This document shows, in pieces, positions 44,480 to 48,342 of a DNA stretch of 64,000 nucleotides. The notes below the pieces were generated by a model. It was not told the DNA's origin. It saw nothing but the letters and a program-made list of their open reading frames with translations, and did not search any database. The position numbers were made by a program, and so were the translations under genes. The DNA lies in the NCBI RefSeq assembly GCF_014647595.1, contig NZ_BMPM01000006.1, positions 62,001 through 126,000 of the forward strand, in the 5' to 3' direction. Each line of letters opens with the position of its first letter. Position 1 is the first letter of the stretch. This DNA is from Paenarthrobacter histidinolovorans (GTDB taxonomy: Bacteria > Actinomycetota > Actinomycetes > Actinomycetales > Micrococcaceae).

Positions 44480-45694
44480 TCAGCGTCCGGCCGCCTCGTC
44501 CAATGCGTCAATCCGGATTTGGCGTGATGCCGGTGAATCCAGGCTGAACGACCGGAAGTCACCGAGCTCGTCCCGGATCCACGCCTCAATCTCGGCGATC
44601 CGTGTGGTGACCGCTGACGTGGGCTTGGCAAATGTCCAGGCAACGATCCGCTCCTTGCCGGGGTCGTACTGCCATAGCCCGATGATCCTTCCCCGGTCCA
44701 GGATCGGATGGTCCGGCAGGTCGGCCTGAAGTGCCAGCGTGGTGTCCAGGACCTTCTTCCCCTTGTCCTCATCAGCAAACATATCCGCCGAATTGCGCCT
44801 GTGGAGGACCAGTGAATCCGTGCCTGCCAACAGCTGGATCTGCTCGTCACCGGGCTCTTGGAAGTCCGCCAAACGTTCGACGTCGGCGGGCAGCATCCAG
44901 AGCACGTCGCCACTGGCCGTGGGCACCTCCACGGCGCCCAGGGTGGCGAGCGCTGCCTGGCTTTGGGCCACGGTGAATGCGGTGAACCACTGGGTCTGCT
45001 TGAGCGTTGCTCCCCCAGTCCAGCGCAAGTAGCGTTCCAGCAGCAGCCGGCGGGCGCCGTCGTCGTCGAGGCCGCTGGGCGCAAGGTCCCAAGCGGTGTA
45101 GGCGTAACGCTGCTGGTCGAGGCGGCCGTTGACCGGGACGCGGCGAATGCGGCCGTCCGCCTGGAGCAGTCCCAAGGCCGTCGGAAGCGTAGTGGAAGCG
45201 CCCTTCTTCTTGCCTTCCTCACCCAAGCTGCGGACCGAATCGCCCAGCACGTCCCGGAGTTGTTTGGGGTCCATGGGGCCGCCGGCTTCCTTGAGTGCGT
45301 GCTCCACCTCGTCCTCAAGGAGGGTGATCTCGCCGCGTTCCACGCCGAGCCTCGCCAGGACTTTGAAGGGGGCAATCGCTGCGTCGCGGCCTATCTGGAG
45401 GGCCCATGCATAGTCGGCCTGGCCCAGGACATAGGTGCAGCCGCGGGCGGTGGGGAGTTCGTGGATTCTGAGGGCTTTGGCGTCGCTGTCCGCTTGTTCG
45501 CGGCTGATTCCTGCCCGGGCGAAGAGCGTGAGATAAGGGTTGGCGCCACCTACCGAGCGGGCCCACCCTGCGTGGTCCAGGACTTCCGCTGATGTCTTGC
45601 CGGTCAGTGAGCCGTCGAGGCCTTGCTTGTGCCACGCCCAGGCCCTGAGACGTTCGGGGGTCAGAATGGCGGATGCCGGTGCGGTGCTGGTCAT
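44480..45694 (-). CDS. winged-helix AlkZ/YcaQ-like DNA glycosylase family protein (HTH_42)
   Basis: 404 residues from ATG 45694 (an in-frame GTG lies 15 bases upstream). The N-terminal LTPERLRAWAWHKQGLDG, internal ALGLLQADGRIRRV winged helices and C-terminal ILDRGRIIGLWQYDPGKERIVAW match the HTH_42 family, whose member AlkZ excises bulky DNA adducts and azinomycin crosslinks. The catalytic QxQ pair of AlkZ is not evident, so activity is uncertain. It begins 19 bp after the glycosyltransferase stop and may be the last gene of that operon. Confidence 0.8.
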   Translation of the reverse strand: MTSTAPASAILTPERLRAWAWHKQGLDGSLTGKTSAEVLDHAGWARSVGGANPYLTLFARAGISREQADSDAKALRIHELPTARGCTYVLGQADYAWALQIGRDAAIAPFKVLARLGVERGEITLLEDEVEHALKEAGGPMDPKQLRDVLGDSVRSLGEEGKKKGASTTLPTALGLLQADGRIRRVPVNGRLDQQRYAYTAWDLAPSGLDDDGARRLLLERYLRWTGGATLKQTQWFTAFTVAQSQAALATLGAVEVPTASGDVLWMLPADVERLADFQEPGDEQIQLLAGTDSLVLHRRNSADMFADEDKGKKVLDTTLALQADLPDHPILDRGRIIGLWQYDPGKERIVAWTFAKPTSAVTTRIAEIEAWIRDELGDFRSFSLDSPASRQIRIDALDEAAGR

Positions 45695-45713
45695 GGCCCC
45701 ATTCTGCACCCGG

Positions 45714-46709
45714 TTATCCCGGCAGGCCGGTCATTGCTTTCAGAACAATGCCCGCTGTGGTCTCCCAGCCGGGGAGGTGTTCGCGGGCTTGGAGGGCGTT
45801 GCTGCGCCAGCGCTTTTGGAGTGCCGCGTCCGTGAGCCAGCTTCGGATAACTTCCGCGAGTGCTTCCGCGGGATCCCACACCGCGCCCGGGTCACTTTCG
45901 CCCAGGGCTTCTACCGCGCCGGTCCCCTGCCGGACGATCACCGGAACTCCGTGAGCCAACGACTCCCCTACCACCAGACCATAGGCCTCCGATGTGGAAA
46001 TCAGGACGCTGAGGTTTGCTGTGTGCCACTGCTCTTCCAGAGCATCGCCGGTCAGCTCGCCAGTGACGCTGATGCGGTTCTGGAGGCCGTGACGTTCGAC
46101 GGCGGCCCTCACCTCGGCCGCGTACGCCGGGTCTGCGTCCATGGTCCCTATCAGGGCAGCAGTCCACGGAAGGTCCCTGACCTGGCTGAGGGCTTCCAGC
46201 AAGAGAGTCTGATTCTTGTTCGGCAGGAGGGCCGCGACGGCGAGGATGTGCGGGGGCACTGATCCTTCGGCGATCTGCGCACGATCCACGCCGGGGCGGG
46301 CCACGTGGATGGTCAGCGATCCGTGTTTGGCCTTCAATTCAGCTGCGGAGTGGGCGCTCGGGCAGATGACCGCGGTGGCGGACGCCAACGCACTCGCCTC
46401 AAGATCCTGATGATCCGCCAATGCCATGTGCGAGATGATCCAGACCTTGGTTCCGGCCTGCACCGCGGCGGCGATTTCTTCCGGCGCCCCGCTCGCCACC
46501 AGGCCGTCGGCAATCACGGTAGTGCCGCCGTCGAGCGCTTGCGCCAAACGTTGGCGGTCCGCCGGGCTGCCAACCGGCCAATCGCCGTCGACGGTCAGTG
46601 TCTCAACCGTGGCGCCGAGGGCCGTCAGGTGTTCGGCGAGTTTGGCGTTGTATTTGTTGCCGCCGGAGCCGTGCCTGACGTTCCCCGGGACCAGGAAGCG
46701 GATGTGCAC
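45714..46709 (-). CDS. family 4 glycosyltransferase
   Basis: 331 residues from GTG 46709, which directly abuts the stop of the upstream gene. GT-B fold: N-terminal FLVPGNVRHGSGGNKYNAKL, inter-domain HMALADHQ, then VAALLPNKNQTLLLEAL, ISVTGELTGDALEEQW and the donor-site motif STSEAYGLVVGESLAHGVPVIV containing the family E-x7-E pattern. It would add a sugar from a nucleotide donor to a small acceptor. The neighbours suggest the acceptor is a pterin- or deazapurine-like compound. Same-strand neighbours abut on both sides. Confidence 0.87.
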   Translation of the reverse strand: MHIRFLVPGNVRHGSGGNKYNAKLAEHLTALGATVETLTVDGDWPVGSPADRQRLAQALDGGTTVIADGLVASGAPEEIAAAVQAGTKVWIISHMALADHQDLEASALASATAVICPSAHSAAELKAKHGSLTIHVARPGVDRAQIAEGSVPPHILAVAALLPNKNQTLLLEALSQVRDLPWTAALIGTMDADPAYAAEVRAAVERHGLQNRISVTGELTGDALEEQWHTANLSVLISTSEAYGLVVGESLAHGVPVIVRQGTGAVEALGESDPGAVWDPAEALAEVIRSWLTDAALQKRWRSNALQAREHLPGWETTAGIVLKAMTGLPG

Positions 46710-47108
46710 TTACTTGGCCGGAAGCTCCAGCGAATAGCCCGCCCAGGCGTCGGGGTTTTCGCGAAGGACGACGTCGATGCCGGCGAGGGCGGGGCCGTCT
46801 TCGGTGTCCTGGATCCGGGTGGCCATGGCGTCTGCGATGTGCTTTGCGAGTGCCTCTGTGGTGGAGAGTTTGCCCTTGAAAGCGGGGTGTTCGTCGAGGT
46901 TCTTGTAGTTCAGGTCCTCGAGGATTTCCTCGAGGATGCCGCCGGCGGCTCCGATGTCGAGGACGATTGCGTCGTCGTTGAGATTCTGGCGACGGAAGCT
47001 GACTTCGGCAACGAACGTTGCACCGTGGAGGCCCTGCGCGGGGCCGAAGGCTTCACGGGGAAGGCTGTGGGCGATCATGAAATGGCGTCGGACGGTCAGG
47101 CTGAACAT
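46710..47108 (-). CDS. 6-pyruvoyl-tetrahydropterin synthase-like (T-fold) protein with altered active site
   Basis: 132 residues. The T-fold pattern is recognisable: FMIAHSLP with His14, LHGATFVAEVSF with His28, YKNLDEHPAF, STTEALAKHIAD and a C-terminal ENPDAWAGYSLE. Canonical enzymes read C-x3-HGH. Here the second His is Ala30 and the Cys position is Ala24, so one zinc ligand and the catalytic Cys are missing. I recall actinobacterial homologues with the same GPAQ-LHGATF sequence, so this is probably a conserved variant, not a mutation. It is sandwiched between the MDR dehydrogenase (3 bp) and the glycosyltransferase (0 bp). The reaction is unknown. Confidence 0.8.
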   Translation of the reverse strand: MFSLTVRRHFMIAHSLPREAFGPAQGLHGATFVAEVSFRRQNLNDDAIVLDIGAAGGILEEILEDLNYKNLDEHPAFKGKLSTTEALAKHIADAMATRIQDTEDGPALAGIDVVLRENPDAWAGYSLELPAK

Positions 47109-47111
47109 GTC

Positions 47112-48113
47112 TTAATCCTCCGGGTTTGGGTACGCGACCACATGGCAGAAACCGCCGGGCCGTTCGAATAGGTTGACGAGTGTAGTGGGCAGGTTTTGGA
47201 ACTGGCATTCGCTGGTCAGAAACGTGTCGAACAGCGGATCTTTGAGCTGGTTTACTGCTTCCTGCAGCCGCTGGGCGTTGGTACGCCGGTGCCTCCTGGG
47301 CAGCGCAACGGCGCCCACCTGGCTGGAGCGGATGTTCAGCCGGCGGGCGTGGAAGTCCTCGCCAAGGGGCAGGGTGACTTCCTTGTCCGCGAACCAGGAA
47401 AGCTCGATGACGTCCGAATCATCACCGGCCAGTTGCAGGCTCAGCTTCAGGCCGTCGTTGGAGGCGGAGCAGTGGAAGACGATGTCGTTGTCGTTTGCCG
47501 CGTCGTCGGGTTCGGCGAATTCGATGCCTAGCTTTTCGGCGAGTTGCCGCTTCTCCGGGTCGGCATCCACCAATTGGAGCCGCCCGAGCGGGTACTTCCG
47601 CAGGAGCGTCGCCAGGACGCCGCCCACCAGTCCACCACCGACGACGGCGACCCGGTCTCCCAGCCTCGGTCCGGCTTCCCAGAGGGCATTGATGGCTACC
47701 TCGACGATGCCCGTAAGTACGGCGCGGCGGGCCGGGACGTCCTCCGGGATTGCGGTGAGCTGGCTCGTGGGGAGCACGTAAAAGTCCTGGTGCGGGTGGA
47801 GGCTGAAGACCGTTTTCCCGCGCCATTCGTCCGGGCCATCTTCGACAGTGCCGACGCTCAGGTATCCGTACTTCACCGGGCCGGGGAAGCCCCCTTCCTG
47901 GTGCGGGGCCTGCATCAGATCGGCAACCCGCTCCGGGACACGGCCTTCATGGACCACACGTTCGGTTCCGCGGCTGACGCCGGAGTAGAGGGTCCTGACC
48001 AGTGCTTCATCTTCTTGCAGTGGCGGCAGGGATTCAGGGCGCAGTTCGCCATCGCCTGACTTGGTGACCCAGTAGGCGTGGGCTTCGTGCACGTGATCGC
48101 GAGGAATAGTCAT
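47112..48113 (-). CDS. MDR-superfamily zinc-type dehydrogenase
   Basis: 333 residues. N-terminal catalytic domain with LYSGVSRGTERVVHEG and GGFPGPVKYGYLSVG; Rossmann motif VAVVGGGLVGGVLATLL; C-terminal RPGGFCHVVAYP. It uses NAD(P) to oxidise an alcohol or reduce a carbonyl. It is the promoter-proximal gene of a compact minus-strand unit with the PTPS-like protein and GT4 gene. That set recurs, as I recall, in many actinobacteria near other pterin-type enzymes. Transcription begins near tRNA-Ser(CGA), on the opposite strand. Confidence 0.85.
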   Translation of the reverse strand: MTIPRDHVHEAHAYWVTKSGDGELRPESLPPLQEDEALVRTLYSGVSRGTERVVHEGRVPERVADLMQAPHQEGGFPGPVKYGYLSVGTVEDGPDEWRGKTVFSLHPHQDFYVLPTSQLTAIPEDVPARRAVLTGIVEVAINALWEAGPRLGDRVAVVGGGLVGGVLATLLRKYPLGRLQLVDADPEKRQLAEKLGIEFAEPDDAANDNDIVFHCSASNDGLKLSLQLAGDDSDVIELSWFADKEVTLPLGEDFHARRLNIRSSQVGAVALPRRHRRTNAQRLQEAVNQLKDPLFDTFLTSECQFQNLPTTLVNLFERPGGFCHVVAYPNPED

Positions 48114-48252: not shown

Positions 48253-48342
48253 GGTGACGTGTCCGAGCGGCCGAAGGTGCAACACTCGAAATGTTGTTTG
48301 GTGTAAAAGCCAACGTGGGTTCAAATCCCACCGTCACCGCCA
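48253..48342 (+). tRNA. tRNA-Ser(CGA)
   Basis: A class II tRNA: acceptor GGTGACG with CGTCACC, discriminator G, encoded CCA (48340-48342), D arm GAGCGGCCGAAGG, anticodon loop CTCGAAA (anticodon CGA), long variable arm and T loop GTTCAAAT. It reads UCG. Confidence 0.97.

Follow-up and report, generated by a model that had tools for sequence, protein, structure and literature searches.

A PTPS-IV protein, a dehydrogenase and a glycosyltransferase in Paenarthrobacter histidinolovorans: possible core of a pathway to a glycosylated pterin-like compound

COG0720 includes a named subfamily, PTPS-IV, whose genomic neighbourhood was reported in 2017 to contain PF00925 together with the RibD C-terminal domain PF01872 (PMC5445326; its Fig. 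5 and supplement may name further partners). In the accessible part of that paper PF00925 is labelled GTP cyclohydrolase I/FolE2, whereas the Pfam name of this family is GTP cyclohydrolase II (GCH II), and the predicted precursor changes in consequence. In other bacteria (Sinorhizobium), BrbF, a protein annotated as a creatininase, is a proven formamidase of the N-formyl compound AFRPP (accessible part of PMC9478397), and SCO6655 is listed as a GCH II in the accessible part of PMC2853524. In this study, a three-gene unit encoding a PTPS-IV protein was analysed in a 64,000-nucleotide stretch of the Paenarthrobacter histidinolovorans genome (assembly GCF_014647595.1, contig NZ_BMPM01000006.1, positions 62,001 to 126,000; hereafter the window). 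Among solved structures, that of Streptomyces coelicolor SCO6650 (PDB 3d7j, released in 2008) is the closest to this protein, and no function for it was found in the openly licensed literature; SCO6650 is said to lack zinc, the catalytic triad and PTPS activity, but to have a pterin-like pocket. SCO6655, in turn, is reportedly a GCH II in which a Met in place of a Tyr halts the reaction at the formamide.

The three genes are arranged head to tail, with gaps of 3 bp (MDR to PTPS) and 0 bp (PTPS to glycosyltransferase):
47112..48113, minus strand: gene 1, dehydrogenase of the medium-chain dehydrogenase/reductase (MDR) superfamily without the usual zinc motifs (open reading frame, 333 aa)
46710..47108, minus strand: gene 2, PTPS-IV T-fold protein, ortholog of SCO6650 (open reading frame, 132 aa; PF01242)
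45714..46709, minus strand: gene 3, GT4 glycosyltransferase (open reading frame with a GTG start, 331 aa; PF00534)

We give roughly even chances to the reading that this trio is the retained core of a pathway fed by GCH II and leading to a glycosylated pterin-like compound, with substrates, product and order of reactions deduced from gene content and sequence comparison.

The altered active site of PTPS-IV and its two partners

The PTPS-like protein matches PF01242 with 85.5 bits (Pfam cut-off 22.4) and is closest to 3d7j among solved structures (phmmer, 1.3e-32; Foldseek, TM 0.91 at 50% identity). It carries the FGPAQ signature of PTPS-IV (F21, G22, P23, A24 and Q25). Within the CxxxHGH motif of PTPS, Ala24 occupies the Cys position and Ala30 the position of the last His, while an alignment to PH0634 revealed the changes HGH to HGA and LDH to LNY, the latter removing one more His usual in the catalytic site. 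The combination of catalytic Cys and zinc His in CxxxHGH or CxxxxxHGH, which marks catalytic PTPS and QueD proteins, is therefore absent, and the score against the QueD family TIGR03367 is 37.1 bits versus an NCBIfam cut-off of 89.25. The initial annotation of the locus had named the three-gene MDR, PTPS-like and GT4 arrangement with its two gaps, the retained fold, and the replacement of the Cys and of one zinc His; all of these were confirmed by the open reading frames, Pfam and structural comparison, and the His lost from LDH is to be added.

The wider survey of residues and of the neighbouring AlkZ gene covered 145 loci, 80 of which were chosen by two peptide patterns (one of them containing FGPAQ); residue figures free of this bias come from 64 loci collected without the FGPAQ pattern. 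Among these 64, F, G, P and A of the signature were found in all and Q in 63; H14, A24, H28, D51, E85 and E117 were likewise present in every ortholog, A30 in 63 and Tyr68 in 61. Compared with eight loci of the genus, the ratio of non-synonymous to synonymous substitution rates (dN/dS) was 0 to 0.10 for the PTPS gene, 0.08 to 0.13 for the MDR gene and 0.16 to 0.28 for the glycosyltransferase gene. Judged from these comparisons, the whole family shares the altered active site and purifying selection maintains it, so it is not the result of decay.

The MDR protein reaches only 17.1 bits with ADH_zinc_N (cut-off 31.8), and ADH_N is not listed by Pfam. An AF2 model (pLDDT 91.4) supports the MDR fold, and so do the best Foldseek matches of that model, generic MDR and polyol dehydrogenases that are not diagnostic. 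Residues S47, G49, T50, E51 and Y84 are invariant in 23 orthologs, and S47 and Y84 presumably stand at the positions of the zinc Cys/GHE motifs; the zinc Cys and GHE motifs of zinc-dependent MDR alcohol dehydrogenases, like a Pfam match above the cut-off, were not found. The GT4 protein matches Glycos_transf_1 (PF00534) with 85 bits and contains the ExxxxxxxE motif; across 22 aligned orthologs its E241 never varies and its E249 hardly does.

Distribution of the trio and the larger cluster in relatives

The order MDR-PTPS-GT was kept in all 58 loci fetched first, i.e. the best-scoring PTPS-IV matches from the class and the genus plus the locus of the window. Of 65 loci from other groups than Arthrobacter, 11 were dropped for short flanks, and MDR and glycosyltransferase genes were found in the stretch in all 54 that remained, in one of which the MDR gene lies 3.7 kb away and inverted (L134), and in another a RibD_C gene is placed between MDR and PTPS (L151). 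Within the Arthrobacter group, the glycosyltransferase gene is present in 29 of the 30 loci. The three genes are thus supported as a co-inherited unit, and the neighbourhood survey proposed in the initial annotation, now carried out, gave the co-occurrence in relatives that it had anticipated. The locus without a glycosyltransferase match beside PTPS-IV (L086, Arthrobacter sp. Hiyo8) also has only a short MDR match, which may reflect faulty assembly or genuine loss.

PTPS-IV was found in 150/150 genomes drawn from the genus, 57/197 from the family and 45/296 from the class (two by weak matches only). A profile search of the phylum gave matches in 73 of 396 genomes, from which no prevalence is claimed: only 10 exceeded 120 bits and the remainder look like generic PTPS/QueD. 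A scan of 84,980 species genomes yielded at least 579 confirmed stretches among at least 595 candidates; the best 80 of these (at least 579) stretches belong to Actinomycetota, Pseudomonadota, Gemmatimonadota and one Saprospiraceae metagenome-assembled genome.

Beyond the Arthrobacter group, the 54 loci with sufficient flanks hold, besides the trio, genes for: (i) a CDP-alcohol phosphatidyltransferase (48 loci), (ii) an LPG_synthase_TM protein (45), (iii) a methyltransferase (44), (iv) a RibD_C reductase (42), (v) RibA, i.e. GCH II (38), (vi) an LTAS/sulfatase-like protein (18) and (vii) a creatininase-family protein (16). Partners were identified by Pfam on one representative each, the methyltransferase and the sulfatase scoring below their Pfam cut-offs, and one locus without PTPS-IV (L215) was left out. 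None of these partners was detected in the 30 Arthrobacter-group loci, the window included, at the thresholds used, below which three weak RibD_C matches (near 1e-8; L083, L088 and L090) fall. An unusually long RibA open reading frame (437-644 aa) occurs in 7 of 95 loci (L069, L070, L101, L102, L107, L143 and L152); L143, the only one of the seven scanned, is a RibA-RibD_C fusion (GTP_cyclohydro2 and RibD_C).

A tree of the concatenated trio (quick method, midpoint root, 23 of 124 loci having been thinned beforehand as near-duplicates) placed 20 of the 22 trio-only rows, including that of the window, in one clade (SH-aLRT 99) nested among larger-cluster rows. Because of this nesting, the three-gene version would most simply be derived by loss from the larger cluster. 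Two members of the family outside the main trio-only clade (L178 and L210) carry MDR and PTPS-IV and were counted as trio-only in the tree, their glycosyltransferase matches being weak and non-adjacent. Intermediate reduced clusters, with the trio, the methyltransferase and the CDP-alcohol phosphatidyltransferase only, were seen in L173, L209 and L211.

The idea that the missing accessories sit together at another, unlinked locus was considered and rejected. The cluster-type methyltransferase was absent from all 10 genus genomes searched, the window genome included, and the cluster-type CDP-alcohol phosphatidyltransferase from the window genome and five others of the 10, the same two queries being positive in 6/6 genomes of the family with the larger cluster; relatives of LPG_synthase_TM and of the LTAS-like protein were not searched genome-wide. 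In the other four genus genomes a CDP-alcohol phosphatidyltransferase relative lies away from the trio (L216, L217, L218 and L219, about 9.3-10.3 kb in each), and the 20 kb around it contain no other match to a cluster profile. The window genome has a single RibA, of the Tyr type described below, located 2 kb from a 394-aa RibD-like protein that is the best of seven RibD_C matches there to the cluster profile (2.6e-38; next 1.1e-11), and no creatininase. Since it also lacks the cluster methyltransferase and CDP-alcohol phosphatidyltransferase, the trio in this clade probably uses precursors from general metabolism, with the single Tyr-type RibA.

RibA, creatininase and the proposed pathway

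In the survey of RibA and CREATININASE, RibA was counted when its match was below 1e-40, which gave 76 RibA proteins in 145 loci (that of L135 was dropped as weak), and the residue equivalent to position 105 of the E. coli enzyme was set by alignment to GCH II 2bz0. Tyr at this position was found in 43 clusters without a creatininase. Every one of the 31 clusters in which RibA has another residue (Met in 22, His in four, Leu in three and Gln in two) contains a creatininase, as does 1/44 of those with a Tyr105-type RibA. One partial RibA has a gap at position 105 and no creatininase in its cluster (L169), and in four further loci a creatininase is present with no RibA in the stretch. Such a pairing is expected if the altered RibA goes no further than AFRPP, which the creatininase then deformylates. 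It points to 2,5-diamino-6-ribosylamino-4(3H)-pyrimidinone 5'-phosphate (DARoPP), an early intermediate of the riboflavin pathway, as the compound that enters the route.

In the full cluster, RibA would open GTP to give DARoPP; where it lacks the Tyr105 equivalent, it would yield the N-formyl precursor AFRPP, from which the creatininase-family protein would remove the formyl group. A RibD_C reductase may often act next, and the zinc-less MDR enzyme could then oxidise or reduce the side chain that stems from the sugar. The T-fold protein PTPS-IV is predicted to bind and reshape (most likely cyclise) the diaminopyrimidine into a pterin-like ring without classical Zn/Cys chemistry, after which the GT4 enzyme would add a sugar. 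In other bacteria, the methyltransferase, the CDP-alcohol phosphatidyltransferase and the LPG_synthase_TM protein may modify the product and export or anchor it. In the clade of the window, the accessories would have been lost from the locus and MDR, PTPS-IV and the glycosyltransferase kept, presumably fed by the single Tyr-type RibA.

A more detailed version, which we consider a long shot, is a pterin route independent of GTP cyclohydrolase I: GCH II, alone or together with a separate deformylase, would supply DARoPP, RibD_C would reduce C1' and MDR oxidise C2' (an Amadori-like shift), and PTPS-IV would close the ring to a dihydroneopterin-phosphate-like compound. The glycosyltransferase, methyltransferase, CDP-alcohol transferase and LPG_synthase_TM protein would then make a membrane-linked or exported pterin glycoside, of which the Arthrobacter group would have a minimal, soluble three-protein version.

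Several observations weigh against a pathway of this kind. A gammaproteobacterial cluster (L110) combines a Tyr105-type RibA with a creatininase, being the one clear exception to the pairing, and the 31 non-Tyr RibA proteins form one clade (support 88/90), with the partial L169 protein apart. The association of residue and creatininase is thus in effect one evolutionary event, and a search for its independent replication failed, as the non-Tyr RibA proteins are essentially one clade. RibA itself is absent from 16 of the 54 flanked clusters. RibD_C is missing from 25 of the 32 clusters without RibA Tyr105 (L169 counted) and from the locus of the window, so that it is no obligatory clustered step, which speaks against the Amadori-like shift as such a step. 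Finally, a catalytic role of the T-fold protein is not assured, given that SCO6650 is said to have neither zinc nor PTPS activity.

A glycosylated pterin-like compound remains the best reading of the product that the initial annotation had described as pterin- or deazapurine-like. The 7-deazapurine half of that proposal has gained no support to date: in a survey made without profile searches, the recurrent neighbours included no family recognised as QueC/E/F-like. Dihydroneopterin triphosphate, suggested there as a substrate to be tried, has become less likely because the recurrent cyclohydrolase is GCH II (FolE was not profile-searched). As to the pathway being undescribed, no description of a product of the PTPS-IV cluster was found in the openly licensed literature, and neither tetrahydropterin nor GTP cyclohydrolase occurs as a term in the accessible part of PMC13118837; yet the PTPS-IV family is named, it has a solved member, and part of its neighbourhood is published. 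As far as that literature shows, the new elements are a broader set of partners that includes membrane enzymes, the association of the RibA residue with creatininase within the cluster, and the minimal three-gene core. With this consistent set of partners, a GCH II product takes the place of a GTP cyclohydrolase I product as the likely precursor, the change of RibA Tyr105 together with creatininase provides a residue-level clue, and the three-gene version in Arthrobacter-group soil bacteria offers a setting in which the product could be identified.

Alternative explanations and comparison with known systems

A flavin- or deazaflavin-like product is unlikely. GCH II, the deformylase and RibD_C would in that case give a ribitylaminopyrimidine that is glycosylated and anchored, with PTPS-IV serving only for binding or scaffolding. 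Of the archaeal proteins GCHIII, ArfB and ArfC, the last would correspond to RibD_C. The set of RibA, creatininase and RibD_C mirrors the archaeal GCHIII and ArfB steps (accessible part of PMC9478397), and an involvement of PTPS-IV in F420 synthesis was stated as unpublished in a 2016 paper (accessible part of PMC5041015). However, when the recurrent neighbours were judged by eye and, for eight representatives, by Pfam, without a profile search, none was recognised as a lumazine synthase, a riboflavin synthase or a member of an F420-type family, and the T-fold with its invariant E117 points to a pterin-like ring.

It is doubtful, too, that the cluster makes a membrane or cell-wall glycoconjugate for which PTPS-IV and RibA provide not the body of the product but a modified sugar or else a pterin with a regulatory role. 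The frequent CDP-alcohol phosphatidyltransferase (48/54), LPG_synthase_TM (45/54) and LTAS-like (18/54) partners would suit such a role, but the 30 Arthrobacter-group loci keep the trio with none of these membrane partners, so the core product needs none of them clustered. That argument is tempered by the solitary CDP-alcohol phosphatidyltransferase relative kept elsewhere in 4/10 genus genomes. We regard it as very improbable that the trio of the window is a relic, its PTPS-IV no longer catalytic and its genes maintained through linkage. The loss of a zinc ligand, of catalytic residues and, from the locus, of the accessories would fit a relic, but full clusters share this active site, dN/dS of the PTPS gene is 0-0.10 and the protein is present in 150/150 genus genomes.

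A stress- or DNA-damage-related operon with the adjoining AlkZ-like gene is hardly credible: AlkZ lies beside the trio in 15 of the 30 Arthrobacter-group loci and in 0/115 others (short-flank loci included), which already contradicts it as a general feature. The surroundings of the trio are as follows:
44480..45709, minus strand: AlkZ-like protein (PF06224, 93.1 bits), a neighbour judged not to be part of the system
48253..48342, plus strand: tRNA-Ser(cga), found by ARAGORN, divergent, the upstream boundary of the trio and not part of it

The AlkZ-like gene is a lineage-specific neighbour and was rejected as a functional partner; the initial annotation had linked it to the product, which the survey does not support, and had placed it 19 bp after the trio, a distance that holds for the ATG start at 45694 and shrinks to 4 bp with the upstream GTG. 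Scans of the locus gave no promoter-like site and four terminator-like sites, versus 3.8 in shuffled sequences.

For the preferred reading, a GCH II-fed pathway to a glycosylated pterin-like compound, the described systems compare as follows. The MDR protein has the BchC-type dehydrogenases (TIGR01202) as its best NCBIfam match and contains an SG-S-GTE motif that we take to resemble theirs, but its 26.2 bits are far under the cut-off of 291.25. With catalytic PTPS and QueD (PTPS-I and II), PTPS-IV shares the T-fold, two of the three zinc His and an invariant Glu117, presumably the pterin anchor; it differs in lacking the Cys and the third His family-wide, and the LDH His is mostly Tyr (61/64). 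As in bacterial BrbF and archaeal ArfB (accessible part of PMC9478397), the creatininase in relatives is paired with a GTP cyclohydrolase predicted to go no further than the formamide, whereas the cluster creatininase, of putative activity, sits with MDR, PTPS-IV and a glycosyltransferase, and the window genome has none. The nearest described system is PTPS-IV itself: the protein of the window is an ortholog of SCO6650 with the shared FGPAQ signature, and the neighbourhood in its relatives holds PF00925 and PF01872, a reported tendency and not a strict criterion, from which the trio of the window departs in having neither.

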